Assembly (NCBI RefSeq): GCF_029690045.1 | Contig: NZ_CP121464.1 | Coordinates: 2,170,001-2,234,000, forward strand | Reading direction: 5' to 3' | Length of the DNA: 64,000 nucleotides | Source of the DNA: Janthinobacterium rivuli | GTDB taxonomy: Bacteria; Pseudomonadota; Gammaproteobacteria; Burkholderiales; Burkholderiaceae_D | Shown: positions 26,557-41,869 of the stretch, piece after piece | How positions within the stretch are numbered: the stretch's first letter is position 1 | Layout of the letters: every line of letters begins with the position of its first letter | The notes under the pieces: generated by a model | Databases searched by the model: none | Told to the model about the DNA's origin: nothing | Seen by the model: the letters and a program-made list of their open reading frames with translations, nothing else | Made by a program: the position numbers and the translations under genes

Positions 26557-26572
26557 TGTACGCTGTCGTACA
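26557..26572. promoter_or_regulatory. Palindrome TGTACG-N4-CGTACA, site 1
   Basis: Perfect 6-base arms around CTGT. It lies upstream of the Lmo0937-type gene and belongs to the recurring motif described in the findings. Confidence 0.6.
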
Positions 26573-26582
26573 CAAGGCTCAA

Positions 26583-26825
26583 CTAGCGCGAGCGGTCGGC
26601 GTGTTCATCGGCCATGCCCGGCACCCATGCCAGCATGCCGGCCATGCCGACGGCGCCCGCCAGGCAGCTGACCATGCCGCCCGTCAACAGCAGCATGACG
26701 CCGAACACGGGGCCGCCCGCTTGCGGCGCCAGGTCCAGCGCGCAGAAGCCCAGCGCGGTGGCCAGCAAGCCGCCGCCAATAAAGCCCAGCCAGATCCTGT
26801 TGCTGCCTGCCTTGTCGTCTTGCAT
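26583..26825 (-). CDS. Hypothetical small membrane protein
   Basis: Protein of 80 residues with two membrane helices (residues about 11-28 and 38-62) and a charged C-terminal tail with Asp, Glu and Arg. AAGGAG stands at a good distance from the ATG at 26825, which argues that it is real. No family recognised. It belongs with the small membrane proteins around it. A variant of the recurring palindrome lies 69 bases upstream. Confidence 0.65.
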   Translation of the reverse strand: MQDDKAGSNRIWLGFIGGGLLATALGFCALDLAPQAGGPVFGVMLLLTGGMVSCLAGAVGMAGMLAWVPGMADEHADRSR

Positions 26826-26893
26826 GGCTACTCCTTGATGACGTTTCGTTGAACTTTCCTGAATGCATCATCTCGCGCGACGGCAAGCTCATC

Positions 26894-26909
26894 TGTACGC
26901 CAACGAACA
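26894..26909. promoter_or_regulatory. Palindrome TGTACG-N4-CGAACA, site 2
   Basis: One mismatch in the second arm. It lies between the terminator of the 26991 gene and the small membrane protein starting at 26825. Confidence 0.5.
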
Positions 26910-26910
26910 T

Positions 26911-26944
26911 TGTTAAAAAGAAAACGCCCGGACAGGCCGGGCGT
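26911..26944 (-). terminator. Terminator of the glycine-zipper gene at 26991
   Basis: Eight-base-pair stem ACGCCCGG / CCGGGCGT, five-base loop. On the minus strand it is followed by a T-rich run. Confidence 0.8.
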
Positions 26945-26990
26945 GTATTCAGTTTGCAACGCATCGCGGCGCTGCGCTGCCTTGGGCAAC

Positions 26991-27644
26991 TTAGCCGATG
27001 GCGCGCAAGCCGCCGTTGACGACGCGCACGCGGTCGCCCTGGCGCCAGTTCGGCGCAGCGCTCTGATGTAGCGTGCGCGTCTTGCCGTTATCCAGGCGCA
27101 CGACGATGTTGTAGCTGCGCGTGGCGCGCACGCTGCCTTCGATCTGGTTGCCGGCCACTGCGCCGCCGACGGCACCCAGCACGGTAGCCAGCTGCTTGCC
27201 GTGGCCGCCGCCGACCTGGTTGCCGAGCAAGCCGCCGACGACGGCGCCGCCGGCCGCGCCCACGCCGCTGCCTTCGGCGCGCGTATTGACTTCATGGATG
27301 GCTTCGATCACGCCACAATTGCTGCATACCTGCGGCGCCGGGGCGGCCGCATATTGTGGCTGTGGCTGCGGCTGGCGCACCGGCTGCTGCTGTGGTTGCT
27401 GTTGCTGCTGTGGCGGCAGGGCGGCCAGCGGCTGCGCGCCGGACGCTTGCAAGTTCGCTTGCGGCTGGTTCGCCTGCAGGTTGGCCATTTGCTCGGCCGA
27501 GGTGCTGGCCGCCAGCGGCTGGCTATCGCCCTGGGAGGAAGGCAGCCAGCCCATCAGGGCAGCCGTGCCGACGCCGCAAAACAGCAGGACGGCGACGGCG
27601 GCGGCAAGCACCAGCGGATGGAGGGATTTGGTGGTGGTGGTCAT
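26991..27644 (-). CDS. Glycine-zipper 2TM-domain protein with Gln/Pro linker
   Basis: Protein of 217 residues. One N-terminal membrane anchor (residues about 9-32) leads to a long Gln/Pro-rich linker (residues about 75-105) and then the glycine zipper (GAAGGAVVGGLLGNQVGGGHGK and VLGAVGGAVAGNQIEG). A small beta domain ends in GDRVRVVNGGLRAIG. This is the SlyB/RcpA-like 2TM family. It resembles the lipoprotein at 36360 in its last 90 residues. The start at 27644 has AAGGAG. It is divergent from the Crp/Fnr gene, with a shared palindrome between them. It probably sits in the inner membrane and spans the periplasm. Confidence 0.85.
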   Translation of the reverse strand: MTTTTKSLHPLVLAAAVAVLLFCGVGTAALMGWLPSSQGDSQPLAASTSAEQMANLQANQPQANLQASGAQPLAALPPQQQQQPQQQPVRQPQPQPQYAAAPAPQVCSNCGVIEAIHEVNTRAEGSGVGAAGGAVVGGLLGNQVGGGHGKQLATVLGAVGGAVAGNQIEGSVRATRSYNIVVRLDNGKTRTLHQSAAPNWRQGDRVRVVNGGLRAIG

Positions 27645-27744: not shown

Positions 27745-27760
27745 CGTGCGTCACCGTACA
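27745..27760. promoter_or_regulatory. Palindrome CGTGCG-N4-CGTACA, site 3
   Basis: Between the divergent glycine-zipper and Crp/Fnr genes, 71 bases before the Crp/Fnr start. This position would allow autoregulation. Confidence 0.5.
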
Positions 27761-27830: not shown

Positions 27831-28607
27831 ATGCCACTAACGAACGCCAGCACGACCCTGTCCCGCGATACAGGCCGATCCGGCCTGGGGTCGCCTGCGG
27901 GCGCGCCTGACGCCGGCAACCGCTTGCTGGCCAGCCTGCCCGAGCACGACTTGCGGCACCTGACCGCGCTGTTCGATAGCGTCACGGTCGAGGTAGGCGA
28001 GGTGCTGTACGAACCGGGCCAGCCTATCGGCCACATCTATTTCCCCGGCGATTGCCTGATTTCGCTGCTGGCCGTGGCGGAAGGCCGCATGACCCTGGAA
28101 GTGGGCTCCGTCGGCCGCGAAGGCGTGCTGGGCGCGTCCGTCGCGCTGGGTCATGACCTGGCGCAAGTGCGTGCCGTGGTGCAACGTTCCGGTACGGCCA
28201 GCCGTATCGCGCGGGCCGACTTCTGCGCCGAGTTCGCCCAGCTCGAGTCCCTGCAGCGTTTGCTGTACCGCTACACGGACACCCTGCTGGCGCAAGCCAT
28301 CCAGATTGCCGTGTGCAGCCGCTTCCACGTGCTCGAAGCGCGCCTGGCCCGTTCGCTGCTGATCACGCGCGACCGCCTGCAGTCCGAAAAATTTCACCTC
28401 ACGCATGAATTTCTCGCCCACACCCTGGGCGTGCGGCGGGTCGGCGTGACCAAGGCGGCCAGCGCGCTGCAACAGCAAAAACTCATCACCTACAGCCGCG
28501 GCAATATCGAGATCCTCGATTCTGCCGGCCTCGAAGCCGTTTCCTGCCGCTGTTACGAGCTGGTCAAGGATAGCGGCGCCATCGGCATGGCCAACGTCTT
28601 CGTCTGA
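27831..28607 (+). CDS. Crp/Fnr family transcriptional regulator
   Basis: Protein of 258 residues. The N-terminal cyclic-nucleotide-binding-like beta roll (residues about 35-150: GEVLYEPGQPIGHIYFPGDCLISLL) lacks the Arg-Ser pair of cAMP binders, and the FNR iron-sulfur cysteine cluster is also absent. The C-terminal winged helix (residues about 180-235) has THEFLAHTLGVRRVGVTKAAS as its helix-turn-helix. The effector is therefore unknown. AAGGAAAAGC precedes the ATG. It sits in the middle of the envelope-stress genes and is the best candidate to bind the recurring TGTRCG-N4-CGYACA palindromes. Confidence 0.88.
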   Translation: MPLTNASTTLSRDTGRSGLGSPAGAPDAGNRLLASLPEHDLRHLTALFDSVTVEVGEVLYEPGQPIGHIYFPGDCLISLLAVAEGRMTLEVGSVGREGVLGASVALGHDLAQVRAVVQRSGTASRIARADFCAEFAQLESLQRLLYRYTDTLLAQAIQIAVCSRFHVLEARLARSLLITRDRLQSEKFHLTHEFLAHTLGVRRVGVTKAASALQQQKLITYSRGNIEILDSAGLEAVSCRCYELVKDSGAIGMANVFV

Positions 28608-28725: not shown

Positions 28726-28944
28726 TTACTTCGGCTTGACCTGGTTACCGATCACGCCGCCGACGGCGGCGCCGCCGACTGCGCCGATGGCGCTGCCGCC
28801 CGTCAGCACGGAGCCGGCAACGGCGCCGACGCCAGCGCCGATGGCGGTGTTTTTATCCTGACCGGACATGTTGGCGCAAGCCGTCAAGCTCAGCAGCAGG
28901 GCGGCAACGGAAGTGGTAGCGGCGATTTTTTTAATGATTTGCAT
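28726..28944 (-). CDS. OsmB-like glycine-zipper lipoprotein
   Basis: Lipoprotein of 72 residues. The lipobox is LTAC (Cys at about residue 23). Two glycine-zipper helices follow (GAGVGAVAGSVLTGG and GAVGGAAVGGVIGNQ) and a short KPK tail. This is the size and layout of the osmotically inducible lipoprotein OsmB. GGAG stands upstream. A variant palindrome (TGTTCG-N4-CGCACA) lies 125 bases upstream. Confidence 0.85.
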   Translation of the reverse strand: MQIIKKIAATTSVAALLLSLTACANMSGQDKNTAIGAGVGAVAGSVLTGGSAIGAVGGAAVGGVIGNQVKPK

Positions 28945-29068: not shown

Positions 29069-29084
29069 TGTTCGGCAACGCACA
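29069..29084. promoter_or_regulatory. Palindrome TGTTCG-N4-CGCACA, site 4
   Basis: Upstream of the OsmB-like gene; one position departs from the consensus. Confidence 0.4.
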
Positions 29085-29125: not shown

Positions 29126-31165
29126 TCAACGGCTTTTGCGCGGCGCCTTGCCCGGTTTCGGCGCCACCGGTTTCACGCGCGCCTGGGCCAGCAGTGCCGC
29201 GCATTCGCTATCTTCGACGGGGCCGGCATTGACCAGCGGCAGCAGCGCCGCCACGGGCGCCACCACGGCCAGCGCCAGTGCGCCACCGGCGCGCAGGGCC
29301 AGCACGCCCTTGTCCACGCTCACGTCGGGCTTGCTGAACGTGCCATGAACATACAGGGGCGAGCGCAGCGAAAAGACGCGCAAGCCCTTGCTGTCCGGCC
29401 GCAGGGTCAGGTCCAGCCGTTCATCGGCCAGGTTCACCGTGCCATCGATATTCAGGACGGCGTCATCCGTGTCGACGATGAACTGGCGTGTGCGCATCAA
29501 GCCCTTGGTGACGGCGAAGTCGGCGGCCATGCAGTTCAGCCTGACCTGCTTGTCGCCAGACAGTTTGGCCAGCACGACACTGCCGATATTCAAGCCCATT
29601 TCTTCCAGCAACAGTTTGCTGATGCTGCCCCGGTTGATCAGCGCGCGCACTTCGCCGTTCGAGCTGCCCAGCAGGGTGGCGACGGAATTGCCCGTGGCCG
29701 ACAGCGATGCATCGCCATTGATCTCGCCCACGCTCGCTTGCAGGGCGGGCAGGCGGGGAAACAGTTGCTGGATGTGCAGATGGCGGGCGCTGGCCTTGAG
29801 TTCGGCCGCGATGCCGTTGGCGATAACTTTGCCGCTGCCGTCGAGCTTGATTTGCGACGTCAGGGTGCCGCCCGCCACGTTGAAATTCAGGGGCGTGAGC
29901 GAGAGCACGCCGTCCGTCAGCACCACATGCGTGTCGAGCTTGCTGATCGGCAAATCAGCGTCGCGCGTGATCTTGTCGGCCGTGTAGCGCACGTCGGCGT
30001 CCAGGCTGGTCCAGCGCTCCGTCTTGAAGGTTTCCACCGGCAGCACGCGGCCGGCCGGCTGCGTCGACGGCACGCCCCGTTCCTTCTTGCTGGCGCTGGA
30101 ATCGGCACCCACCAGCGGACCGAGGTCGGAAAATTGCAGCAGGCGCGAATGGACTTCACCCGTCAGGCGCTTGCGCGGCGTGCTGGCGGAAAAGGCCAGC
30201 TTGCCGCTGATGTCGCTGGAGCCCACATTGCCGCTGAACTTGTCGTACACCCACTCGCCGCCGCGCGGCGCCAGGGTGCCCGTCAAATGGCCTTCCGTGC
30301 TGAAATGCGGCGTCTCCGGCAGCAGCACGCCCGTCAAGGGATACAGGCGGGCCATGCTGGGTCCGGATAGCTTCAGGCGCACGTCGAGCGCGGCCAGGTC
30401 TGTCGGGCGCGTCAGGGTGCCTTCGATGGCCACGCTGCTGCCGCTCGCGCGCATGTCGGCCTGGATGGGGAAGGGCGTGCCTTGCCGCTGCAGCGACAGC
30501 ACGCCGCCCGCCTTGCCGCCGCCCTTGACGGTTTCGCCGCGGTAGGTGCCCGACAGCGTCCACGCGATGCCATAGCGCGCATCGTCCGCGATGGTGTCGA
30601 CATCGGCGCGCATCGCCGTTTTGCTGACGCCATCGTCCAGATAGACGGTGCCCTTGCTGAAGACTACGCTTTGCAATTCCAGCTGCCACGGCGATGGCTG
30701 CTCCTGCTTGTCGAAGGTCCAGTTGTTTTTGCCATCCTTGCTGCGCAGCAAGCGCACCTGCGGCGTGTCGAAGCGCAATTGCGGGATGATGATTTTCTTG
30801 TCCAGCAGGGCCAGCGGGTTGAGCGAGAACGCCAGCTGGCTGACGGTGGCCAGCTGCGCCTGGCCATCCGTGTCCGTCATCGCGCTCGGGTTGCCCAGGC
30901 GCACGTCCTTGGCCTGCAGGTGCGGCCAGGGCAGATAGTCGCGCCAGGTTTTTTGCCCCGCGGTACCGGCTGGCTGATGCCACGTCAGCGCCAGGTCGCC
31001 GTCGATGGCGAATGGACGTCCCAGCGCGTCGCTGGCGCGCGCATTGAGCCAGGGCTTGGCGCGGTTCCAATCCATGTTCGACAGGACGATGGCGGCGGTG
31101 ACGGGCAGGGCGATGAGCACGGCGGTGCTGGCGAGGGCGATTTTCTGACGGCGGGAGAGCGGCAT
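29126..31165 (-). CDS. AsmA family protein
   Basis: Protein of 679 residues with an N-terminal membrane anchor (residues about 8-30). The AsmA N-terminal domain has WLNARASDALGRPFAIDGDL and the HLQAKDVRLGNP pattern. The C-terminal AsmA_2-type half has GDASLSATGNSVATLLGSSNGEV and a late Arg/Lys-rich tail. AsmA-like proteins bridge the inner and outer membrane and move or control phospholipids. The start is ATG at 31165 with AGAAAGAA; a TTG further upstream at 31186 is possible. It diverges from the DUF4398 lipoprotein gene. Confidence 0.85.
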   Translation of the reverse strand: MPLSRRQKIALASTAVLIALPVTAAIVLSNMDWNRAKPWLNARASDALGRPFAIDGDLALTWHQPAGTAGQKTWRDYLPWPHLQAKDVRLGNPSAMTDTDGQAQLATVSQLAFSLNPLALLDKKIIIPQLRFDTPQVRLLRSKDGKNNWTFDKQEQPSPWQLELQSVVFSKGTVYLDDGVSKTAMRADVDTIADDARYGIAWTLSGTYRGETVKGGGKAGGVLSLQRQGTPFPIQADMRASGSSVAIEGTLTRPTDLAALDVRLKLSGPSMARLYPLTGVLLPETPHFSTEGHLTGTLAPRGGEWVYDKFSGNVGSSDISGKLAFSASTPRKRLTGEVHSRLLQFSDLGPLVGADSSASKKERGVPSTQPAGRVLPVETFKTERWTSLDADVRYTADKITRDADLPISKLDTHVVLTDGVLSLTPLNFNVAGGTLTSQIKLDGSGKVIANGIAAELKASARHLHIQQLFPRLPALQASVGEINGDASLSATGNSVATLLGSSNGEVRALINRGSISKLLLEEMGLNIGSVVLAKLSGDKQVRLNCMAADFAVTKGLMRTRQFIVDTDDAVLNIDGTVNLADERLDLTLRPDSKGLRVFSLRSPLYVHGTFSKPDVSVDKGVLALRAGGALALAVVAPVAALLPLVNAGPVEDSECAALLAQARVKPVAPKPGKAPRKSR

Positions 31166-31249
31166 AAGCTGATTCTTTCTGTACAAGTAGTTGCGATGCT
31201 ACAGGAATCGCTCCAAGGCCGGGCCTGTTTCAGCTTTTGCTGGCGGACA

Positions 31250-31265
31250 CGTGCGCTGGCGCACG
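31250..31265. promoter_or_regulatory. Palindrome CGTGCG-N4-CGCACG, site 5a
   Basis: Perfect arms around CTGG, 157 bases before the DUF4398 lipoprotein start. Paired with site 5b, fifty bases away. Confidence 0.5.
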
Positions 31266-31299: not shown

Positions 31300-31315
31300 T
31301 GTGCGGCACCGAACG
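31300..31315. promoter_or_regulatory. Palindrome TGTGCG-N4-CGAACG, site 5b
   Basis: Weaker copy 50 bases (about five helix turns) from site 5a and 107 bases before the DUF4398 gene. Confidence 0.4.
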
Positions 31316-31421: not shown

Positions 31422-31826
31422 ATGACAAACCGAGATTTCAAGATGTCCCCATTGGCCGCCTTGGCCGCCTGCGCCACCGCCGTTGTCCTGATGACGGGCT
31501 GCTCCAGCCTGAAAACGCCTGCCACGGCCGACGTCGCCGTCTCGCGCGCCGCCGTCGATAACGCCGCCAGCGCCGGTGCCGCCGACCTGGCACCCGATGA
31601 AATGCGTTCGGCCCGCGAAAAAATGCGCATGGCTAACCAGGCCCTGAAAGACCGCGACTACAAGATGGCGCGCGACCTGGCCGACCAGGCGCAAGCCGAT
31701 GCCAAGCTGGCGCAAAGCAAGGCCAACTCGGCCAAGGCCACCAGTGCCGCCGATGAAATCAACGAGAACATCCGCGTCATGCGCGAAGAGCTCGACCGTG
31801 CCAATCAGCAAGCCCCAAAACAATAA
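31422..31826 (+). CDS. DUF4398 lipoprotein
   Basis: Protein of 134 residues with a lipoprotein signal (MTGCSS, Cys at about residue 27). An alpha-helical, Ala-rich DUF4398 domain follows with the family's APDEMRSAREKMRMANQALKD and ARDLADQAQADAKLAQSKA. It is periplasmic and likely coiled. AGGAGAAG precedes the ATG. The OmpA gene 32 bases downstream carries the same kind of domain, so the two probably work together. Confidence 0.82.
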   Translation: MTNRDFKMSPLAALAACATAVVLMTGCSSLKTPATADVAVSRAAVDNAASAGAADLAPDEMRSAREKMRMANQALKDRDYKMARDLADQAQADAKLAQSKANSAKATSAADEINENIRVMREELDRANQQAPKQ

Positions 31827-31858
31827 GCCACAACAATAACTAATAACAGGATTCCATC

Positions 31859-32758
31859 ATGAAAAAAGCTACCTACACCACCATTCCCGGCCTGCTGGCC
31901 ATGGCCGCCTTTGTTGCCGCCTGCAGCTCCGCACCGACCACCACCAGCCTGCTCGACCAGACGCGCGGCGACTACATGGCGGCGCAATCGAACCCGATCG
32001 TGTCGACCTATGCGCCACGCGAATTCCGCGAAGCGAGCGCTGCGCTGGAAGCGGCGAACGCGGCCGCCACGCGCCAGGAAGATAGCGAAAAAGTCGACAA
32101 GCTGGCCTACCTGGCCAAGCAAAAGATAGCCACGGCGCAGGAAGTCGCCAAGCAGAAGGCGGCGGAAGCCGATATCGCCAACGCCGGCAAGCAGCGCGAT
32201 CAGTTGCGCCTCGATGCGCGCACGCAGCAGGCTGACCAGGCCACGGCCCGCGCCCAGTCGGCGCAAGCGGATGCGGAAGCGGCCAAGGCCCAGGCGCAAG
32301 CGGCCGAAGCGTCGGCCCGCGATGCGCAAGCCCGCGCCGCCGGACTCGAAGCGCAGCTGGCCGATCTGGCCGCCAAGAAAACCGAACGCGGCATGGTGAT
32401 CACCCTGGGCGACGTGCTGTTTGGCACGGACAAGGCGAACCTGACGGCCGATGGCGCGAATACGGCGCGCAAGCTGGCCGATGTGCTGAAAAACAATCCG
32501 CAGCGCACCGTGCTGATCGAAGGCTTTACGGATAGCACGGGCGGCTCCGCGCACAACCTGGAATTGTCGCAACGCCGCGCCGAATCCGTGCGCAACGCGC
32601 TGCTGGAGCAAGGCATCAGCCGCGACCGCATCGCCACCAAAGGCTATGGCGCCGCCTATCCGGCCGCCGGCAACGACACGGCGGCAAACCGCCAGCTGAA
32701 TCGCCGTGTGGAAATCGTCTTGTCCGAGGACAACACGGCCATTCCCGCCCGCCGCTAA
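31859..32758 (+). CDS. OmpA-family lipoprotein with DUF4398 coiled coil
   Basis: Protein of 299 residues with a lipobox (VAAC, Cys at about residue 22). A DUF4398-like helical region is followed by a long Ala/Gln coiled coil (residues about 95-170) and an OmpA domain (residues about 180-290: GDVLFGTDKANLTADG, EGFTDSTGG, LSQRRAESVRNALL, and NRRVEIVLS). It should bind peptidoglycan from the outer membrane. It is co-transcribed with the DUF4398 lipoprotein just upstream. Confidence 0.88.
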   Translation: MKKATYTTIPGLLAMAAFVAACSSAPTTTSLLDQTRGDYMAAQSNPIVSTYAPREFREASAALEAANAAATRQEDSEKVDKLAYLAKQKIATAQEVAKQKAAEADIANAGKQRDQLRLDARTQQADQATARAQSAQADAEAAKAQAQAAEASARDAQARAAGLEAQLADLAAKKTERGMVITLGDVLFGTDKANLTADGANTARKLADVLKNNPQRTVLIEGFTDSTGGSAHNLELSQRRAESVRNALLEQGISRDRIATKGYGAAYPAAGNDTAANRQLNRRVEIVLSEDNTAIPARR

Positions 32759-32845
32759 GCCGCGTCCGTTGACGCGGGAGTAGAAAGGCAGCACCGGCCG
32801 AAGCTTGGCCGGTGGATACCCATGCAAGACTTGAAAGGAAACATC

Positions 32846-33382
32846 ATGACCCAAACATCTGTTGAGATTCCAGCTGGCATCGATACGGCAGCCATCCGCG
32901 CTGCCGCCAAAAACCTGGACGACGGCGCCGTGACGGCCGGCTACCAGGCCGACCGCCAGGAGTTGATCACCCTGTTGAATGGGGCGCTGGCCACCGAACT
33001 GGTGTGTATTGCGCGCTATAAACGTCATTACTACACCGTGAGCGGGCGCGACAACGGCAGCATCAAGGCCGAGTTCCTGGAACATGCGCAGCAGGAGCAG
33101 GAGCACGCCGACTGGCTGGCCGAACGCATCGTGCAATTGAATGGCAAGCCAGATTTTAATCCTGCAACATTGCTTGCGCGTAGCCATGCCGAGTATGATG
33201 ACTCTGAAGACGTGCAAAGTATGGTGCGTGCCAATCTGATCGCGGAACGGGTAGCGATCGAGTCGTATCGCCAGATGATCGTGAAAATCGGCGACAAAGA
33301 CCCGACCACACGCCATTTGTTGATCAAGATCATGGCTGTCGAGGAAGAGCACGCCGATGATATGCGCGATCTGATGGAATAG
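32846..33382 (+). CDS. Ferritin-like (bacterioferritin/Dps-type) protein
   Basis: Four-helix-bundle protein of 178 residues. Carboxylate and His ligands appear in the right order for a di-iron or bacterioferritin fold: ATELVCIARYKRHYY in helix A, EHAQQEQEHADWLAERI in helix B, ANLIAERVAIESYRQMI in helix C and IMAVEEEHADDMRDLM in helix D. It probably stores or oxidises iron during stress. The start at 32846 has AAAGGAA; an ATG at 32822 would add eight residues. Confidence 0.82.
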   Translation: MTQTSVEIPAGIDTAAIRAAAKNLDDGAVTAGYQADRQELITLLNGALATELVCIARYKRHYYTVSGRDNGSIKAEFLEHAQQEQEHADWLAERIVQLNGKPDFNPATLLARSHAEYDDSEDVQSMVRANLIAERVAIESYRQMIVKIGDKDPTTRHLLIKIMAVEEEHADDMRDLME

Positions 33383-33440
33383 TGTTTTTGAGTAAAGTAG
33401 GTATAGTAACTACATTCATCCACAGCTAAGGAGCTAAACC

Positions 33441-33743
33441 ATGTTGGAAAACAATATCACCACCGTCAATAACGATGTCAAAACCCTGGTCAAGGATGCG
33501 CAAGCCCTGTTCAGCGCCGCTGCCGCCCTGACGGGCGAAAAAGCCGACGAAGTGCGCGTCAAGGGCATGAAAACCCTGGACGCCGCCCTGGCCAAGGCGC
33601 ATGAAGCGCAGGCGTCGGCCATCGTTGCCACCAAGCAGATGGCTGCCCAGGCTGACGGCTATGTCAAGGAAAACCCATGGCGCACCGTGGCTGTCGCCGC
33701 TGGCGTCGGCGTGCTGGTCGGCTTCATCCTGGGCCGCAAGTAA
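33441..33743 (+). CDS. DUF883 family protein (ElaB/YqjD type)
   Basis: Protein of 100 residues. It is helical with one C-terminal membrane anchor (residues about 75-98, ending GVLVGFILGRK) and the DUF883 pattern ENPWRTVAVAAGVGVLVG. E. coli ElaB and YqjD bind ribosomes and tie them to the membrane in stationary phase. AAGGAG precedes the ATG. It is the first gene of the classical three-gene ElaB/YqjE/YqjK-type operon. Confidence 0.88.
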   Translation: MLENNITTVNNDVKTLVKDAQALFSAAAALTGEKADEVRVKGMKTLDAALAKAHEAQASAIVATKQMAAQADGYVKENPWRTVAVAAGVGVLVGFILGRK

Positions 33744-33761
33744 TCCACTGTCAGGAGCGAT

Positions 33762-34148: not shown

Positions 34149-34169
34149 GCGGCCTCACGAGGAGAATTC

Positions 34170-34508: not shown

Positions 34509-34529
34509 ACGCCAGCCGTGTTGCACAGG

Positions 34530-34556
34530 AACGCCGTCATTGACGGCGTTTTTTTT
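34530..34556 (+). terminator. Terminator of the DUF883-YqjE-YqjK operon
   Basis: Stem ACGCCGTCA / TGACGGCGT followed by T8, about 20 bases after the YqjK-like stop. Confidence 0.92.
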
Positions 34557-34642
34557 GCCCGTACCCAAGGTCCGGCGCAGACAGGCGCAATCCCTTACAA
34601 TGATTTACGCTGCACCCGCGCGGCGGATAGAGGGCCATCTTG

Positions 34643-35797
34643 ATGACGAATTCGAAGACACCGATCAATCAGTTAAATCCCTCGCGCCTGCGCATCGTGC
34701 TGGTGCTGCAGGGCGGCGGCGCACTGGGCGCCTACCAGGCCGGCGTCTACCACGCGCTGCACGAGCATGGCCTGGCGCCCGACTGGGTGGTGGGCACCTC
34801 GATCGGCGCCATCAATGCGGCCATTCTGGCCGGTAACAAGCACGAAGACAGGCTCGTGCGTCTGAAAGAGTTCTGGCAGCGCGTGGCGCACCGCGACAGC
34901 ATCGACATGAACCTGGTCTCCGACCAGCAGCGCCGCTCGAACATCTGGCTGGCCACGCTCGATACCGTGCTGCGCGGCGTGCCCGGCTTTTTCAAGCCGC
35001 GCACCTTCAGCCTGTTTCCCGCTGGAATCGCCGTCAAGCCGGAAGAGGCCAGTTTTTATGACACCAGCGAGCTGGCCGGCACCCTCGAGGAACTGGTCGA
35101 TTTCGATTACCTGAACCAGCCCGGCGGCATGCGCCTGACGGTCAACGCCCTGCGCGTCAAATGCGGCAGCCTCACCAGTTTCGACAGCCAGCAGCAGCCG
35201 CTGACGGCCGATCACATCCGCGCCAGCGGCGCCTTGCCGCCCGGTTTTGCCGGCGTGCGCGTCGATGGCGATTTATACTGGGATGGCGGCCTGTACTCGA
35301 ATACGCCGCTGGAAACCGTGCTTGACGACACGCCCCACGTCGACACCCTGGTCTTCATGGTCGACTTGTGGAGCTCGGAAGGGCCGGAACCGACCACCCT
35401 CGACGAAGTGCAGACGCGGCAAAAGGACGTCACCTTCGCGTCGCGCTCGAAGCGGCATATCGCCGATTACGTCAATACGCACACCTTGCAGCGCAAATTG
35501 CGCGAACTGTACGCCGGCCTGCCCGACACCAAGCACAACCGCCAGCAGACGCAAGAGCTGGTGGCGTTGGGTTGCGACAGCACCATGCACATCGTGCGCC
35601 TGCCGTACGCGGGGCGCGACTGGCACATGGCCGCCAAGGACATCAATTTCTCCAAGGGCTCCATCGAGTGGCGCTGGGAGCAGGGCTACCAGGATGGCTT
35701 GCGCGCAATCAAGGCGGCCGGCTGGCTGGCTTTTGTCACGGAAGACACGCCGCTGGTGGTACACGAGTTGCCGCCATACGAACGCGACGCTGCCTGA
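34643..35797 (+). CDS. Patatin-like phospholipase (DUF3734 type)
   Basis: Protein of 384 residues with the patatin catalytic dyad. The oxyanion loop is LQGGGALGAYQAG, the nucleophile elbow is GTSIG with Ser53, and the DGG motif has Asp214. The DUF3734 C-terminal extension (residues about 270-380) follows. It should hydrolyse acyl chains from phospholipids in the cytoplasm or at the inner membrane. GAGGG precedes the ATG at 34643; a TTG one codon earlier is less likely. It adjoins the envelope genes. Confidence 0.88.
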   Translation: MTNSKTPINQLNPSRLRIVLVLQGGGALGAYQAGVYHALHEHGLAPDWVVGTSIGAINAAILAGNKHEDRLVRLKEFWQRVAHRDSIDMNLVSDQQRRSNIWLATLDTVLRGVPGFFKPRTFSLFPAGIAVKPEEASFYDTSELAGTLEELVDFDYLNQPGGMRLTVNALRVKCGSLTSFDSQQQPLTADHIRASGALPPGFAGVRVDGDLYWDGGLYSNTPLETVLDDTPHVDTLVFMVDLWSSEGPEPTTLDEVQTRQKDVTFASRSKRHIADYVNTHTLQRKLRELYAGLPDTKHNRQQTQELVALGCDSTMHIVRLPYAGRDWHMAAKDINFSKGSIEWRWEQGYQDGLRAIKAAGWLAFVTEDTPLVVHELPPYERDAA

Positions 35798-35800
35798 TCA

Positions 35801-36103
35801 TCACTGCGGATGCGCCGCCTCGCGCAGCTTCTCCGCGTTTGCCATGTCTTGCCGATACGTGTCTTGCGCATCCTTCAGGCAGGTGGCGCGCGCGGCCGAT
35901 GGTTCCGAACGGCAAGCTTTCTTGGCCTCGGCCAGGGCGGCGGCGATTTCCTTGCGCAGGGTGCGCAGCTGGGCTTGCGCCGTGCTGTCTTCCTGGTACC
36001 AGCGTTGCGGGTCGCCCGGCTGCGGCGCGGCAGTCTGCGCCAGCACGAATGGCGCCAGGCTGCAGGCGAGCAGGGTGGCCAAGAGTGTGTTGTGGATAGT
36101 CAT
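35801..36103 (-). CDS. Hypothetical periplasmic protein
   Basis: Protein of 100 residues with a signal peptide (cleavage after VLAQTA, about residue 22) and a helical mature part with two cysteines (KKACRSEPSAARATCLKDAQ) that may form a disulfide. AAGGAGG precedes the ATG, so translation is likely. It is convergent with the patatin gene, with three bases between the stops. It is common in this bacterial family as far as I recall, without known function. Confidence 0.72.
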   Translation of the reverse strand: MTIHNTLLATLLACSLAPFVLAQTAAPQPGDPQRWYQEDSTAQAQLRTLRKEIAAALAEAKKACRSEPSAARATCLKDAQDTYRQDMANAEKLREAAHPQ

Positions 36104-36122
36104 GATATTTCCTCCTTGAAAT

Positions 36123-36149
36123 AAAAAAGGCGCCGTAGCGCCTTTTTTT
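36123..36149 (-). terminator. Terminator of the DUF3309 gene
   Basis: Stem GGCGC / GCGCC with a CGTA loop, flanked by A6 and T7. It overlaps the last stop-codon bases of the minus-strand DUF3309 gene. Confidence 0.88.
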
Positions 36150-36300
36150 ACAACCTGCCCGTCAGTAATAGCAGGATCAGTATCACTACGACCAGGCCGG
36201 CGATGCCGCTGGGACCGTAACCCCAGTTGCGGCTATGCGGCCAGGTGGGCAGGACGCCGACCAGGGCCAGGATCAAGATGATCAGAATGATGGTGCCCAT
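36148..36300 (-). CDS. DUF3309 small membrane peptide
   Basis: Peptide of 50 residues. Two hydrophobic helices flank the DUF3309 signature LPTWPHSRNWGYGPSG. AAGGAG supports the ATG at 36300. It lies 59 bases after the glycine-zipper lipoprotein on the same strand and may share its message. Function unknown; found with stress genes. Confidence 0.88.
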   Translation of the reverse strand: MGTIILIILILALVGVLPTWPHSRNWGYGPSGIAGLVVVILILLLLTGRL

Positions 36301-36359
36301 GGTATCTCCTTGTTGGTGCATGGTCCGGCGCAGGCTTGCGGACAAGCCCGGCCAGCGGA

Positions 36360-36806
36360 TTAATAGCGGTAGACGCGGCCGTCAACGACGCGCACGCGGT
36401 TGCCCGGGCGCAAATCATTCGCATTGTCCTGCACCACGGTGCGGTATTCGCCGTTGTCGAGGCGTACGCTGATCTGGTAGGCCTGCGCTTGCTGCCTGCG
36501 GCCTTCGACCTGGTTGCCCACGACGCCGCCGGCAACGGCGCCCGCCACGGTGGCGGCCGTGCGTCCGCCGCCCGAGCCGATGGTATTGCCCAGCAGGGCG
36601 CCGGCGATGCCGCCGACCACGGCGCCGGCGCCGCTGGTTTGTCCGCCGCCTTGCACGATCTGGATGGAGTCGACGGTGCCGTACATGGCAGATTCAGGCT
36701 GGTTGGCCGGGTAATATTGTTGTGACTGGGAAGGACCGGTGGCGCAACCGCTCAGTGCGGCGGTGGCGGCGAGCATCAGTGCAGCCAAGGTGGCGTTGGT
36801 TTTCAT
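36360..36806 (-). CDS. Glycine-zipper 2TM lipoprotein (SlyB/Pcp-like)
   Basis: Lipoprotein of 148 residues (lipobox LSGC, Cys at about residue 21). A short linker, YGTVDSIQIVQ and a glycine zipper follow (GAVVGGIAGALLGNTIGSGGGR and GAVAGGVVGNQVEG). A beta tail ends in GNRVRVVDGRVYRY. It matches the SlyB/Pcp outer-membrane family of envelope-stress lipoproteins. It resembles the protein at 26991 in the last two thirds. A palindrome TGTACG-N4-CGCACG lies 61 bases upstream of the start. Confidence 0.88.
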   Translation of the reverse strand: MKTNATLAALMLAATAALSGCATGPSQSQQYYPANQPESAMYGTVDSIQIVQGGGQTSGAGAVVGGIAGALLGNTIGSGGGRTAATVAGAVAGGVVGNQVEGRRQQAQAYQISVRLDNGEYRTVVQDNANDLRPGNRVRVVDGRVYRY

Positions 36807-36866: not shown

Positions 36867-36882
36867 TGTACGCTGCCGCACG
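36867..36882. promoter_or_regulatory. Palindrome TGTACG-N4-CGCACG, site 6
   Basis: It lies 61 bases before the SlyB-like gene. The bases around it match site 1 (CTGTACGCTG). Confidence 0.6.
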
Positions 36883-36982: not shown

Positions 36983-36998
36983 TGTACGGCAGCGTACA
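36983..36998. promoter_or_regulatory. Palindrome TGTACG-N4-CGTACA, site 7
   Basis: Perfect arms around GCAG, 78 bases before the exported repeat protein at 37076. Read on the other strand it is almost identical to sites 1 and 6, including flanking CTTCTG and CAAG. Confidence 0.65.
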
Positions 36999-37075
36999 GA
37001 AGAGAGGCGGCGATCCACGTAAAACGGTAGTCATGCCAAGCAGACATGCTTGCTACCACCAGGGAGAAACACAAT

Positions 37076-37630
37076 ATGAACAAGAATAAGCTTTTCACCG
37101 CCATCGTCGTCAGCCTGGCATGCGCCGCCTGGGGCGGTCAGGCCGTGGCGGCCACGCCGGAAGCGAAAGCAGCCTACAAGGCGGCCAATGAGCAGGCTGG
37201 CCTGAACTACAAGCTGGCACATGCCGAGTGCGAAAAAATCACGGGCAACCCGAAAGATGTCTGCGTTGCCGAAGCGAAAGCCGTGCGTGCCTACGATGAA
37301 GCGGTGGCCCAGGCGCAATACACGAATACCCTGCGTGCCTACACCAAGGCGCGCATCAAGATTGCCGATGCGAACTACGACGTCGACCTGACGCGCTGCG
37401 ATGCGCTGACGGGCAACGACAAGGATGTCTGCGTCAAGCTGGCCAAGTCCACCAAGGTGGCGGCCCTGGCCGATGCCAAGGCGGACAAGAAAGTCATCGA
37501 AGCGCGCAGCGATGCGCGTGAAGCAAAAAGAAAAGCCGAGTACAAGGTCGCGACAGAAAAATGCGATGCATTAGCCGGCGCAGCCAAGGATGACTGTATC
37601 AAGGCTGCAAAAACCCAGTTTGGCTACTGA
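37076..37630 (+). CDS. Exported triple-repeat cysteine-pair protein
   Basis: Protein of 184 residues with a signal peptide (cleavage after QAVAA, about residue 26). The mature part has three repeats with a period of about 55 residues, each centred on C-x10-C with the core C-D/E-x-L/I-x-G-x-x-KD-x-C (Cys52/63, 108/119, 163/174). Long Lys/Ala-rich helices separate them. Each pair probably forms a disulfide. The start at 37076 has AGGGAGAAA. No named family recalled with certainty. It is divergent from the SlyB-like gene behind a pair of palindromes. Confidence 0.8.
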   Translation: MNKNKLFTAIVVSLACAAWGGQAVAATPEAKAAYKAANEQAGLNYKLAHAECEKITGNPKDVCVAEAKAVRAYDEAVAQAQYTNTLRAYTKARIKIADANYDVDLTRCDALTGNDKDVCVKLAKSTKVAALADAKADKKVIEARSDAREAKRKAEYKVATEKCDALAGAAKDDCIKAAKTQFGY

Positions 37631-37712
37631 GCTCCCTCCGGCGCGCAGTCACCACACTGGTATAAGAAGCTCATTGTGAGCACATTGATTGACCACTCCT
37701 AAGGAAAAAACC

Positions 37713-38024
37713 ATGAAATTCACTAAATCTATCGCTACTGGCCTTTTCATCGCTTCCCTGTTCGCCGTTGCAGGTTGCGCTTCGACCCCAACCAAAGAAG
37801 GCACGGGCGAGTACATCGACGACGCGGCCATCACCACCAAAGTGAAAGCCAGCATCTTCAATGAGCCTACCCTGAAATCGACGGAAATCAACGTTGAAAC
37901 CTTCAAGGGCGTGGTTCAGCTGAGCGGCTTCGTGGCCCAGCCGTCGGATGCCTCCAAGGCAGGCGAAGTCGCCCGTGGCGTCAAGGGCGTGAAGTCGGTC
38001 AAAAACGACATCCGCGTCAAGTAA
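37713..38024 (+). CDS. BON-domain lipoprotein (OsmY-like)
   Basis: Lipoprotein of 103 residues (lipobox VAGC, Cys at about residue 22) with a single BON domain (residues about 36-102: YIDDAAITTKVKASIFNEP, VETFKGVVQLSGFV, KGVKSVKNDIRVK). BON proteins such as OsmY bind phospholipids and protect the envelope under osmotic stress. AAGGAAAAAA precedes the ATG at 37713. Confidence 0.88.
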   Translation: MKFTKSIATGLFIASLFAVAGCASTPTKEGTGEYIDDAAITTKVKASIFNEPTLKSTEINVETFKGVVQLSGFVAQPSDASKAGEVARGVKGVKSVKNDIRVK

Positions 38025-38043
38025 TGGCATGACCTGCCGCAGC

Positions 38044-38063
38044 GGCCAGCCCCACGGCTGGCC
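38044..38063. terminator. Hairpin between BON and AI-2E genes
   Basis: Eight-base-pair stem GGCCAGCC / GGCTGGCC with a four-base loop 20 bases after the BON stop. There is no T-tract, so it may only slow transcription. Confidence 0.4.
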
Positions 38064-38096
38064 CTGTGGTCCACCACCGACCGTCGCGGGAATCGC

Positions 38097-39293
38097 ATGC
38101 ATATCCAGCCTAAAGATACCCCGCCCGAGCCGGTGGCGGCTGCCTCCACCGAGCCTGCCGGGCCACCTCCCGGCACGCCTGTGGAGCACCCCGATTCATC
38201 CTTGCGTTTGCCGCTGCACGTCAATGCGCGCGGCTTGGCGCTGGGCATCATCGCCACCGTCAGCTTCATTTATGCGCTGCAGTGGGCACAGAAATTCCTC
38301 ATTCCCGTCATTTTCGGCATTTTCATTGCCTATACCCTCAATCCCGTCGTCGCCTGGCTGGAAAAGCTGCGCCTGCCGCGCGCAATCGGCGCCACGGCCG
38401 TCACGGCCCTGATCCTGTTCGGCTCCCTCGTCGTGGTCGAGCGCGTGCAGGGCGAATTCGAATCCATCGTTGAAGAATTGCCGGCCGCCACGCATAAGCT
38501 GTCGCGCCTGATCGCCGCCAATACGGGCGGCAAGAACAGCACCTTCCAGAAGATGCAGGCCGTGGCCAATGAAATCGAGCAAGTGGCCGCCGGCGCCGAA
38601 GCGCGCCGCAACAACCGCCGCGCCGCCGCGGCCGAGGCGCCCAATTTCAAGATCATGGACTGGGTCTGGGCTGGTTCGCTGGGCCTGGTGGGCTTCCTCA
38701 GCCAGGCCACCATGGTCATCTTCCTCGTGTTTTTCCTGCTGCTGTCGGGCGACACCTTCAAGCGCAAGCTCGTCAAGCTGACGGGGCCGTCGCTGAGCCG
38801 CAAGAAGGTTACCGTGCACATCCTGGAAGACATCAATACCTCGATCCAGAACTATATGTTCATGCTGCTCGTCACGAATGGCTTGCTGGCCGTCCTGATG
38901 TGGATCGCCCTGCGCGTGATCGGCCTGGAAAATGCGGGCGCCTGGGCCATCGTGGCCGGCTTGCTGCACATCATGCCGTATTTCGGCCCCTTGCTCATCA
39001 CCATCGCCACGGGCCTGGTGGCCTTTTTGCAGTTCGAATCGCTGGAAATGGTCTTGCTGGTGACGGGCACGTCGATGGCCATCGCCACCCTGGTGGGCAC
39101 CTTTGTCACCACCTGGATGACGGGGCGCATCGCCCGCATGAATCCCACGGCCGTGTTCATCAGCCTGCTGTTCTGGGGCTGGCTGTGGGGCGTCTGGGGC
39201 TTGCTGCTGGGCGTGCCCATCATCGTCATCGTGAAAGTGGTGGCCGAGCGCGTGCAGGGCATGGAAGTGGTGGCGGAACTGCTGGGCGAATAG
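38097..39293 (+). CDS. AI-2E family transporter, second copy
   Basis: Membrane protein of 398 residues. A Pro-rich cytoplasmic N-terminus (residues about 1-45) leads to helices, a soluble middle, and the C-terminal core with LLVTNGLLAVLMWIALRVIG and LLHIMPYFGPLLITI. The family's MTGRIARMNPTAVFISLLFWGWLWG sequence block is present. It differs strongly from the first AI-2E protein (10522), so this is not a recent duplication. It is the last plus-strand gene of the envelope district. Substrate unknown. Confidence 0.86.
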   Translation: MHIQPKDTPPEPVAAASTEPAGPPPGTPVEHPDSSLRLPLHVNARGLALGIIATVSFIYALQWAQKFLIPVIFGIFIAYTLNPVVAWLEKLRLPRAIGATAVTALILFGSLVVVERVQGEFESIVEELPAATHKLSRLIAANTGGKNSTFQKMQAVANEIEQVAAGAEARRNNRRAAAAEAPNFKIMDWVWAGSLGLVGFLSQATMVIFLVFFLLLSGDTFKRKLVKLTGPSLSRKKVTVHILEDINTSIQNYMFMLLVTNGLLAVLMWIALRVIGLENAGAWAIVAGLLHIMPYFGPLLITIATGLVAFLQFESLEMVLLVTGTSMAIATLVGTFVTTWMTGRIARMNPTAVFISLLFWGWLWGVWGLLLGVPIIVIVKVVAERVQGMEVVAELLGE

Positions 39294-39312: not shown

Positions 39313-39334
39313 AACGGCGCCCGCGGGCGCCGTT
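39313..39334. terminator. Palindromic terminator between AI-2E and YihY genes
   Basis: Perfect 10-bp arms (AACGGCGCCC and its complement) with a GC centre, between two convergent genes. The flanks are A-rich on the left and GTTG on the right, so termination is stronger for the minus-strand gene. Confidence 0.6.
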
Positions 39335-39354
39335 GTTGCATGCAGACTGATGAC

Positions 39355-40302
39355 TTACGACTGGTGGCGTTTCAATATCTTGACTTGCACATCGCCGTCG
39401 TCCGTCTTCGGCATATCCTTCATGCTGCCCAGTTGCAGGGCGAACTGGCGCGTGAATTCAGCGCCCAGGAAGAAGATTTGTGCCGAGTAATACACCCACA
39501 GCAGCAGGGCCACCAGCGAACCGGCCGCGCCATAGCTGCTGGCCACGCCGCTATTGCCGATATACACGCCAATTGCATACTTCCCCAATGAAAACATGAA
39601 GGCCGTGCCCACGGCGCCGATCACCACGTCGCGCCAGGACAGGCGCACGCGCGGCAGCATTTTGTAGATGACGGCAAACAGGCTGGCGATGACGGCAAAT
39701 CCGATCAGGTTCGACAGGATGGTAAACAGCACGGCCGTGTCCTTCCACACGCCTTCCCAGAAGTTGGCGAGGATGGCCATGGCCGCATTGACCACCAGCG
39801 ACACCATCAGCAGGAAGGCCAGCACCAGCACCAGGCCGAAGGACAGCAAGCGCGTGCGCAGCATGTCCCAGGCGCCCGCTTCCTTCAGCGGCGGCACTTG
39901 CCAGATTTCATCGAGACTGGCTTTCAGCTCGGCAAACACGCTGGTGGCGCCAAACAGCAGCAGGGCGCTGGCGATGAGGGTGGCGATGCGGCCCTGTTCA
40001 TGGTTCTTCGCGCCGGCCAGCACCAGCTGGATGGCTTCGGCGCCCTGCGTGCCCAGCAAGCCCTGCAGTTGTCCCATCAGCTCGCCGCGCGCGGCGGCCG
40101 GGCCATAGAAAAAGCCGGCGATGGCAATCACCAGCACGAGGATGGGGGCGATGGAAAACAGGGTGTAGTAGGCGAGGGCGGCGCCCTTGCTTGAGGCGCG
40201 GTGTTCCAGCCATTCGGTGACGGAACAGACGATGACGCTGCGCATCTGCTTGCTGAGCGGCGCCAGGCCGGCCAGCTTGGGATAGCGGGTAGAAATATTC
40301 AT
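39355..40302 (-). CDS. YihY/BrkB family membrane protein
   Basis: Protein of 315 residues with six membrane helices. It has the family markers KGAALAYYTLFSIAPILVLVIAIAG near the start, FGATSVFAELKASLDEIW in the middle, LPRVRLSWRDVVIGAVGTAFMF, and SLVALLLWVYYSAQIFFLGAEFTR near the end. Older names are 'ribonuclease BN' or virulence factor BrkB; neither activity is supported for this family today. The start at 40302 is chosen as the family N-terminus. Confidence 0.86.
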   Translation of the reverse strand: MNISTRYPKLAGLAPLSKQMRSVIVCSVTEWLEHRASSKGAALAYYTLFSIAPILVLVIAIAGFFYGPAAARGELMGQLQGLLGTQGAEAIQLVLAGAKNHEQGRIATLIASALLLFGATSVFAELKASLDEIWQVPPLKEAGAWDMLRTRLLSFGLVLVLAFLLMVSLVVNAAMAILANFWEGVWKDTAVLFTILSNLIGFAVIASLFAVIYKMLPRVRLSWRDVVIGAVGTAFMFSLGKYAIGVYIGNSGVASSYGAAGSLVALLLWVYYSAQIFFLGAEFTRQFALQLGSMKDMPKTDDGDVQVKILKRHQS

Positions 40303-40317
40303 GATGGCTTTCAATGC

Positions 40318-40344
40318 AAAAAAGGGGCGCGAGCCCCTTTTTTT
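40318..40344 (-). terminator. Terminator of the OmpA gene at 40373
   Basis: Stem GGGGC / GCCCC with a GCGA-type loop, A6 on one side and T7 on the other. On the minus strand it follows the OmpA stop by about 30 bases. Confidence 0.9.
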
Positions 40345-40372
40345 ATTCACAAGTGGCGTACCACTGTTGAGC

Positions 40373-41398
40373 TTACTGCACGCGGCGTTCGATGGTGATT
40401 TGTTCCACTTCAACGCGGCGGTTTGGTTCCAGGCACTTGATCAGGTCGGCACGTTTCTTGTTGTCGCAGGTGACGACAGGATTGGTGGAGCCCTTGCCTT
40501 CGGCCGTCAGACGGTTGGCGGCGACACCATGACCGACCAGGTATTCCTTGACTGCATCAGCGCGCTGCTGCGACAGTTTCAGGTTGTACTTGGGCGAACC
40601 GATGCGGTCGGCATAACCACTGATGACGACGTTGTTGACGTCTGGTGCGGCGTTCAGCACGCGGGCGATTTCGTCGAGCTTGGTCTGTGTCGGGCCCAGC
40701 TTGGCGCTGTCGAACGCGAACAGTTCCGTTGCCGCCATCGTCACTTTTTCAAAGCGTGCTGGCGGTGGCGGCGGTGGTGGCGGCACGACCACGACGACTT
40801 CTTCACGCGCTGGCGGCGGTGGCGGTGGTGGCGGCGGTGCAGCTGGTTTGTCGAACGCGAAGTTCAGGCCCACGGTGACATAGTAGTTGTTGGACTTGCT
40901 GCTTGGGTCGAACGTATTGCCGCGCAGGAAACCGTGCACATTGCGGATGTCAGCCTGGAACGACAATTGATCGTTGATCGTGGACTGGAAGCCCAGACCG
41001 ACACTGGCGTAAGGCGAGCTCTTGCTGCGTTCGCCGAAAGCGAAGCTGGTGTCCTTGTCGCGCTGCATGCCGGCACCAACGAGCAGGAAGGGGCGGAAGG
41101 CTTTGCGCGAGAACATGTACAGACCGTCTACGCCCAGCGTATTTTGCTGGTAGCGCTGACCGCCATCCTTGGAGCGGGCATACGTGGTGCCCAGCTGGAT
41201 ATCCCAGTCCGGCGAAACGGGTTTACCGAAACGCAAGCCTGCGCCATAGCCGGTTTTATCCGTGGCGAAGTCGGAATCTGGCTTGAGTGCGTTGAGGCTG
41301 GGTTGAATGTACCAGGAGGGATTGATTTCCTGGGCCTGTGCGCCGAGGGCGGAGCACAGTACTGCGGCGGCAACGGCGATTTTTTTTAGATTATTCAC
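40373..41398 (-). CDS. OmpA-type outer-membrane protein with two polyproline tracts
   Basis: Protein of 341 residues with a signal peptide (residues about 1-22, ending GAQA). An eight-stranded OmpA-like beta barrel spans residues about 25-200, ending VTVGLNFAF. A linker with nine then eight consecutive prolines around AREEVVVVV follows, and then an OmpA peptidoglycan-binding domain (residues about 240-335: FAFDSAKLGPTQ, SGYADRIGSPKYN, LSQQRADAVKEYL, NRRVEVEQI). One cysteine pair near the end (CDNKK and KCLEP) fits the family. The start is GTG at 41398 with GGGAG seven bases away. A palindrome lies 160 bases upstream. Confidence 0.88.
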   Translation of the reverse strand: MNNLKKIAVAAAVLCSALGAQAQEINPSWYIQPSLNALKPDSDFATDKTGYGAGLRFGKPVSPDWDIQLGTTYARSKDGGQRYQQNTLGVDGLYMFSRKAFRPFLLVGAGMQRDKDTSFAFGERSKSSPYASVGLGFQSTINDQLSFQADIRNVHGFLRGNTFDPSSKSNNYYVTVGLNFAFDKPAAPPPPPPPPPAREEVVVVVPPPPPPPPARFEKVTMAATELFAFDSAKLGPTQTKLDEIARVLNAAPDVNNVVISGYADRIGSPKYNLKLSQQRADAVKEYLVGHGVAANRLTAEGKGSTNPVVTCDNKKRADLIKCLEPNRRVEVEQITIERRVQ

Positions 41399-41869
41399 AA
41401 GTAACTCCCAACGTTGATAAGAGATTTTCTCTACTGCATCAATGCGACAACTGCCAGACATGCTATTGCTAGAGATAGACAGCAATTCCAGGTGCGCTTT
41501 CTTGCGATAAATGCACTGCTGTTGGAGTAGAGAATACGGTTGCAGGTTCAAGTGGTCGGTGCGATAGCGCACAAAGCATTGCGGTATATCAATGGTGTTG
41601 CAGATTCACGACAAATACTTTGGTGTTGAAAAAAACTAATTCGCCTCGGCAAACTTTTGCAATCACGGCCACATCCTGGCGCCGCGACTGGAGGCAATCG
41701 TACGACTTGTTACCAGCGTGCCACTGTATATTAGCAACAATGATGAGCTTGATAACTAATATTACATTGATGTTGTATTCCTGCCGCGTTCGCTTGCTTT
41801 GCCGGGCTTCTCTCGGGCAACTTTTGCGCGCAGCAGCCAGCTCCGCCACTTTTCATCAAGGAGTCACCT
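41399..41869. other. Intergenic region between OmpA and alpha-2-macroglobulin genes
   Basis: 471 bases between divergent genes, visibly AT-richer than coding DNA. Apart from palindrome site 8 and the ribosome binding site AAGGAG at 41858-41863, I find no gene, repeat or hairpin that I would call. It must hold both promoters. A minus-strand reading frame at 41589-41849 has no ribosome binding site and no protein-like composition. Confidence 0.6.
41558..41573. promoter_or_regulatory. Palindrome GGTGCG-N4-CGCACA, site 8
   Basis: GTGCG / CGCAC arms around ATAG, in the long AT-richer region upstream of the OmpA gene. Confidence 0.45.

Follow-up and report, generated by a model that had tools for sequence, protein, structure and literature searches.

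Which regulator, if any, reads a palindrome that recurs before the envelope genes of Janthinobacterium rivuli, and to what effect? The question is raised by a stretch of 64,000 nucleotides of contig NZ_CP121464.1 (the window, whose own numbering is used below unless a genome position is given), in which a district at 25-42 kb carries repeated copies of TGTRCG-N4-CGYACA around the gene of a Crp/Fnr-family protein at 27831-28607. Taken as a whole, our analysis makes it probable that the palindrome is the operator of this protein, a predicted autoregulated class II activator of mostly envelope operons. For the operator assignment itself, in the longer form T-N-TGTRCG-NYRN-CGYACA-N-A, sequence evidence makes the case very likely.

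In the proposed mechanism, a dimer of the Crp/Fnr protein would bind the palindrome, centred some 41.5 bp upstream of the transcription start, and act there as a class II activator, with a regulon consisting mostly of cell-envelope operons and its own gene. Positive autoregulation would produce a self-amplifying switch, and the single site at 27745 would serve the Crp/Fnr gene on one side and the divergently transcribed glycine-zipper gene on the other. A preliminary description of this DNA had already proposed a Crp/Fnr regulon, and this is now supported by the -41.5 spacing, by sites in the regulator's own promoter (40 of 40 related loci; 22 of 51 distant homologues) and by the absence of such sites at paralogues with an RRES recognition helix (0/19). 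The position of the sites over the -35 region suggests activation rather than repression.

Clustering and conservation of the palindrome

Expected counts were taken from 200 dinucleotide shuffles, and the reversed pattern served as a control. At no more than one mismatch, the window holds 8 sites against 1.05 expected (maximum among the 200 shuffles, 5), and the 25-42 kb interval holds 7 against 0.27 (maximum 3). The sites at 26557 and 36983 are perfect, as the preliminary description had recognized, while those at 26894, 27745, 29069, 36867 and 41558 carry one mismatch. All nine copies that it listed were recovered; the remaining two, at 31250 and 31300, have two mismatches each and belong to a weak class that is not above chance in the window (13 matches at up to two mismatches against 15.3 expected). 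An eighth one-mismatch site, absent from that list, lies outside the district at 63141. The window, which covers 1% of the genome, contains 8 of its 42 one-mismatch sites (binomial 1e-8), and 7 of the 42 are packed into 15.1 kb (binomial 1e-11). The flanks of the first and seventh listed copies do agree once each is read in the direction of its gene, and the agreement forms part of a longer palindrome, which in 341 sequences has an outer T in 82% and an outer A in 88%.

Conservation was assessed in 40 loci around the Crp/Fnr orthologue, 20 from the same genus and 20 from other genera of the family, which are part of those found. Together they contain 250 one-mismatch sites, against 3 of the reversed pattern. 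Sites are conserved before the same genes in these related species. For each gene we counted loci with a site of at most one mismatch in the 400 bases upstream, with starts taken from tblastn matches; the reversed pattern gave 0 in every such test. The Crp/Fnr gene has a site in 20/20 loci of the genus and 20/20 of other genera, followed by slyB (19/19; 15/19), the glycine-zipper gene (19/19; 16/19) and the triple-repeat gene (16/17; 10/13). Within the genus, sites also precede DUF5670 (19/19), the gene for an 80-residue membrane-like protein, mem80 (16/17), and osmB (18/19). Counts for the OmpA barrel gene were 15/17 and 2/7, for BON 3/19 and 6/20, and for the first OmpA gene 2/20 and 13/20. 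Better sites in the same gaps of relatives lend support to the two weak copies: one lies before AsmA in 9/20 genus and 10/16 other loci, and before DUF4398 in 8/19 and 13/18.

Across the 40 loci, no site was found before the DUF883, holin-like, 112-residue, patatin, PerM, BrkB or 100-residue genes, and few were found before OmpA2 (1/20; 1/19), ferritin (1/20; 2/18) and the second DUF5670 gene (1/19; 1/13). The motif therefore marks mostly the heads of presumed operons. The site at 27745-27760 is exceptional in that its sequence including the spacer, CGTGCGTCACCGTACA, is identical in 20/20 genus loci and in most loci of other genera; the other sites vary.

Promoter geometry

When the sequence is read from the site towards the gene, a sigma-70 -10-like hexamer is repeatedly met 21 bp past the site. 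We scored 341 unique downstream sequences, many of which are related and some of which, at divergent genes, were entered once for each direction. The mean -10 score was +1.2 at offset 21, and it ranged from -3.2 to -6.4 at all other offsets from 5 to 48. The best hexamer fell at offset 21 in 152 of the 341 sequences, and the runner-up, offset 31, accounted for 22. Similarly, the ten window promoters average 3.36 at offset 21 against -4.80 (standard deviation 1.30) elsewhere, a value that 0 of 20000 random shifts reached; nine of the ten score above zero at this offset, which in six is also that of the best hexamer.

If the hexamer occupies -12 to -7, a 21-bp gap places the centre of the site at -41.5, which is the class II activator position of CRP and FNR. 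Judged by this geometry, nine of the ten window promoters fit the class II arrangement of a -41.5 centre, a -10 hexamer and no good -35 element. The district contains 2 consensus -35/-10 promoters where chance would give 3.5, and such a lack of enrichment would be expected if its promoters need an activator.

The regulator and its link to the motif

The protein belongs to the Crp/Fnr superfamily, with a match to the CRP-type helix-turn-helix (HTH) family PF13545 of 51 bits (cut-off 27). Its AF2 model (predicted local distance difference test, pLDDT, 81) has the CRP fold, consisting of an N-terminal beta-roll, a long dimer helix and a C-terminal HTH, and was matched by Foldseek to CAP, GlxR, MtbCRP and FNR. 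Near orthologues in Janthinobacterium stand at 88-95% (three records) and 96% (one named protein), and the wider group comprises 4332 proteins at E<=1e-40 among 7999 candidates scored.

We surveyed the promoters of 77 of the 80 named homologue records. A site was present in 24/26 Oxalobacteraceae-like and 22/51 other homologues, and the reversed pattern in 0/77; in many cases a -10-like hexamer follows the site at offset 21. These own-promoter sites accompany the subfamily to other members of the Beta- and Gammaproteobacteria. When homologues are sorted by recognition helix, the site accompanies RRVG, the type of the window protein, in 59 of 64 rows, many of which are close relatives, RREG in 12/31, RRES in 0/19 and other helices in 1/5. 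In a tree of 98 rows, the 43 RRVG rows form one side of a 100/99 branch. A by-eye comparison for a shift from TGTACG to TGTGCG between the RRVG and RREG lineages gave no clear difference.

The abundance of the motif also tends to follow the regulator. Where a close orthologue is present (39 family genomes), perfect sites average 4.10 per genome (reversed, 0.92); in the 106 genomes that lack one, the average is 1.85 (reversed, 1.22). In a hand-picked set of genomes, a homologue at E<=1e-15 is present in all 13 that are rich in the motif and lack a close orthologue, and is absent from 9 of the 18 that are motif-free. We also started from the motif, taking 16 loci that surround sites in genomes lacking a close orthologue: 4 have a homologue (40-44% identical) beside the sites and the BON and osmB genes, and 1 has a 49% homologue with no site in the 450 bases upstream. 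A second homologue, 35% identical, was seen at one locus (L139, genome G062) with its own perfect site, TGTGCGATGGCGTACA.

Contrary evidence and alternative explanations

Several observations weigh against the Crp/Fnr operator reading. The whole-genome scan that had been suggested as a check gave a divided answer: in 6,325,785 bases, the 42 one-mismatch sites are fewer than the 67 of the reversed pattern, so the total is no proof, and it is the local density that indicates a real enrichment. Of the 34 sites outside the window, 33 were classified with a simple codon-usage gene finder, and 25 are coding, 6 precede a gene by at most 400 bases and 2 are otherwise intergenic; among 15 of the 67 reversed sites sorted in the same way, 14 are coding and 1 is upstream. 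The -10 matrix was set by hand, and the AsmA promoter fails the offset-21 spacing test. In other genera, sites are scarce before osmB (2/19), mem80 (3/13) and DUF5670 (5/18), although such low counts, for instance that of DUF5670, arise partly because tblastn starts are misplaced. At least three perfect sites still occur in 26 of the 106 genomes without a close orthologue, 11 of the 16 motif-first loci have no homologue nearby (four of them, the g57 loci, keep sites between DUF5670 and BON genes), and the other 9 of the 18 motif-free genomes do have a homologue. Finally, the genome encodes a Crp/Fnr paralogue of the RREG type, beside two of the RRES type.

This RREG paralogue, at 1133 kb of the genome, is the main rival or partner of the window protein, and it could share its sites. 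In the stronger version, it would be their main user and the window protein a minor or non-binding one. The own-promoter sites of RREG homologues and the four motif-first loci with a homologue beside the sites, which is of the RREG type, speak for this, as does a helix that differs from that of the window protein mainly at V/E and K/E positions. However, the stretch around the paralogue in this genome (1130200-1136900) holds no site even at two mismatches; the gene lies outside the district, flanked on one side by the gene of a GGDEF/EAL protein and on the other by that of a hybrid-type sensor kinase, and it is the RRVG gene that stays with the district and its sites in 20/20 genus loci. We therefore regard the RREG paralogue as an improbable main user.

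A second alternative keeps the window protein on the sites and reverses its effect, so that it would repress by covering the -35 region. Where the -10 hexamer stands at offset 21, the sites do overlap that region, and a repressor could sit there too. It would not need a spacing exact to the base pair, as seen in 152 of 341 sequences, and consensus promoters at chance level leave little basal activity to repress; repression is accordingly an outside chance beside the activation that we prefer. The weakest explanation, an unlinked transcription factor or a dispersed repeat element, can draw on the g57 genomes (sites before DUF5670 and BON genes, no Crp/Fnr homologue within the stretch examined) and on the presence of at least one perfect site in 69 of the 106 genomes that lack a close orthologue, but is very improbable given the CRP-like half-site spacing and -41.5 position, the own-promoter sites that track the subfamily into other Beta- and Gammaproteobacteria, and the persistence of sites while surrounding sequence changes, unlike a mobile repeat.

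Chance or a dispersed repeat as such was ruled out by the local clustering, the conservation before the same genes and the fixed spacing.

Possible signal input

The preliminary description held that the protein lacks ligands for both cAMP and an iron-sulfur cluster. Its sequence agrees, as there is no cysteine in residues 1-74 to form an FNR-type N-terminal cluster, and the cAMP cassette is degenerate in 119 homologues (position 99 hydrophobic, 115 mostly Ala, R114 in 102); we take these positions to correspond to E72, R82 and S83 of CRP. The claim needs qualifying in that a near-invariant Cys/His set leaves a metal or thiol input possible. Of the 119 homologues, 111 carry all four of C162, H166, C239 and C241. 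In the remaining 8, all of the RRES type and in one clade of the tree, C162, H166 and C239 have changed together and C241 is kept. Since this joint change is confined to one clade, it represents one evolutionary event and is no more than a hint of a joint site. RRES paralogues outside the clade keep the set, which is thus not specific to the motif-linked lineage. In the AF2 model, the long dimer helix ends at C162, and helix 231-237 is followed by C239 and C241.

These four residues are possibly a thiol or metal input of the regulator. A wider and distinctly speculative proposal is that a large Crp/Fnr subfamily of Beta- and Gammaproteobacteria may sense envelope or redox stress through C162/H166/C239/C241, linking the dimer helix to the DNA-binding domain, and may drive a self-amplifying class II envelope regulon (glycine-zipper lipoproteins, OmpA-like and membrane stress proteins) from its own TGTRCG-N4-CGYACA operator.

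Genes and sites of the district

The sites and the genes assigned to them are collected in Table 1.

Table 1. Palindromic sites, predicted -10-like hexamers and associated genes (window coordinates).
Feature	Coordinates	Strand	Remarks
Perfect site towards DUF5670 gene	26557..26572	-	-10-like GACACT 26530-26535
DUF5670 small membrane protein, 48 residues from inner ATG	26253..26399	-	Pfam; start uncertain
One-mismatch site before 80-residue protein	26894..26909	-	-10-like GATGAT 26867-26872
80-residue small membrane-like protein (mem80)	26583..26825	-	no Pfam match
One-mismatch site common to Crp/Fnr gene (+) and divergent glycine-zipper gene (-)	27745..27760	both	-10-like TAGGCT 27782-27787 (+, Crp/Fnr); CACACT 27718-27723 (-, glycine zipper)
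Glycine-zipper membrane protein (Rick_17kDa_Anti)	26991..27644	-	Pfam
Crp/Fnr-family regulator, 258 residues, recognition helix GVRRVGVTKA, proposed activator	27831..28607	+	HTH_Crp_2; AF2 model; own-promoter site
One-mismatch site before osmB-like gene	29069..29084	-	-10-like TATTCT 29042-29047
OsmB-like glycine-zipper lipoprotein	28726..28944	-	NCBIfam OsmB 84.2 bits, below cut-off 98
Weak two-mismatch site towards AsmA gene	31250..31265	-	offset 21 is ACAGGC, rank 34 of 44; no -10
AsmA-family protein	29126..31186	-	Pfam
Weak two-mismatch site before DUF4398 operon	31300..31315	+	-10-like TATAAC 31337-31342
Presumed operon: DUF4398, DUF4398/OmpA, ferritin-like, DUF883 (ElaB-like), holin-like membrane, 112-residue, patatin	31422..35797	+	
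One-mismatch site before SlyB-like gene	36867..36882	-	-10-like TAAGAT 36840-36845
Presumed operon: SlyB-like glycine-zipper lipoprotein, second DUF5670-like, 100-residue exported protein	35801..36806	-	Pfam support for first gene only
Perfect site before triple-repeat exported protein	36983..36998	+	-10-like TAAAAC 37020-37025
Presumed operon: triple-repeat exported protein (start 37046 or 37076), BON (OsmY-like), AI-2E/PerM transporter	37046..39293	+	
One-mismatch site before OmpA barrel gene	41558..41573	-	-10-like TATTCT 41531-41536
OmpA beta-barrel protein (start uncertain), then BrkB/YihY-family membrane protein	39355..41389	-	
One-mismatch site outside district	63141..63156	.	+ strand CATTCT at offset 21

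Distances of 60-160 bases from site to envelope gene had been reported; we find about 47-160, and 217 to the assumed start of the barrel gene, where the starts of the DUF5670, triple-repeat and barrel genes are uncertain. The site before the Crp/Fnr gene was correctly placed, at 70 rather than 71 bases. The genes at 31422..35797 are read as one operon because of their close spacing and the near-absence of sites before the inner ones. In the operon headed by the SlyB-like gene, the second DUF5670-like gene, which has no Pfam match, was named from its sequence, and the assignment of the 100-residue exported protein is likewise a reading of the sequence.

Among the linked targets that match a Pfam family, the majority are envelope proteins, in keeping with the envelope association first proposed. 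The NCBIfam models of OsmB, OsmY and ElaB match district genes with scores that are all below their cut-offs, and these members suggest a role in envelope or osmotic stress. A bacterial alpha-2-macroglobulin gene (41870-47623) is divergent from the OmpA barrel gene, with the site at 41558 in the gap between them; in 13/15 genus loci a site lies upstream of it, in this common gap. The site at 63141-63156 is flanked by a 206-residue protein without a Pfam match (+) and a lipoprotein-like protein of 78 residues (-).

Comparison with known systems

The RpoS general stress regulon of enterobacteria holds osmB, osmY, elaB and yqjD-type genes. The district resembles it in gene content, with matches below the NCBIfam cut-offs, and differs in that the shared element here is a palindromic operator. 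Replacement of a lost RpoS was ruled out, as RpoS scores above its curated cut-off in 132 of 145 family genomes, including this one.

Class II promoters of Escherichia coli CRP and FNR share with the sites described here the -41.5 centre and a dimer-type palindrome of 5-6-5 layout, and differ in the half-site, the CRP palindrome being TGTGA-N6-TCACA (PMC8465061). Unlike CRP and FNR, the window protein has a degenerate cAMP cassette and no FNR-type N-terminal cysteines. Another likeness is to SdrP (TTHA1359) of Thermus thermophilus, which has the same CRP/FNR fold (weak match to structure 2zcw, E-value 0.044) and is described as a proposed class II stress-linked activator with the palindrome AWTGTRA-N6-TYACAWT (PMC8465061). 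The two share the 5-6-5 layout and the proposed class II activation, here predicted from spacing, and differ in half-site (TGTRA against TGTRCG) and in target genes. SdrP, HB099 and DdrI are listed as active without ligand in PMC12937710, and PMC12531629 describes a large "CRP-like" class without solved structures. In a related betaproteobacterium, Herbaspirillum seropedicae, the Fnr regulons are under Crp/Fnr regulators that respond to oxygen, and no link to the TGTRCG motif appears in the available excerpt (PMC5934665).

Among the literature matches listed, which may have missed the spelling "Crp/Fnr", no publication on the motif or the regulator was found. As far as our searches reach, the proposed regulon is ordinary in kind, and its motif, regulator and targets are new. 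The predictions would supply an operator, an activation mode and a target list for a common Crp/Fnr group that has no regulon described in the literature searched, provide a functional context for envelope proteins such as DUF5670, DUF4398, DUF883 and the glycine zippers, and highlight the Cys/His cluster as a possible input.

Candidate sites beyond the district

A composite site was defined as the palindrome followed, after 21 bp, by TANNNT. At no more than one mismatch, the genome contains 7, of which 6 are in the district and 1 is at genome position 686600; at no more than two, it contains 34 against 20 reversed. In 12 other family genomes, 121 composite sites were found against 11 reversed. 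In the present genome, the sites at 686600, 5471370, 5066455 and 5844786 have counterparts, followed by similar sequence, in 1-3 of the 6 genus members searched. The candidate genes downstream encode a large protein that matches neither Pfam nor NCBIfam, a lipoprotein-like protein, a CheR and an alanine-rich exported protein. A LiaF-type membrane protein is the candidate near the two-mismatch site at 2506098.

A perfect and a one-mismatch site, at 1442367 and 1432298, lie 10 kb apart and are followed by long reading frames at distances of 297 and 464 bases; the composite matches include neither of them. A further site, at 4358264, stands between a small-protein gene and a divergent HisKA_3-type histidine kinase gene.

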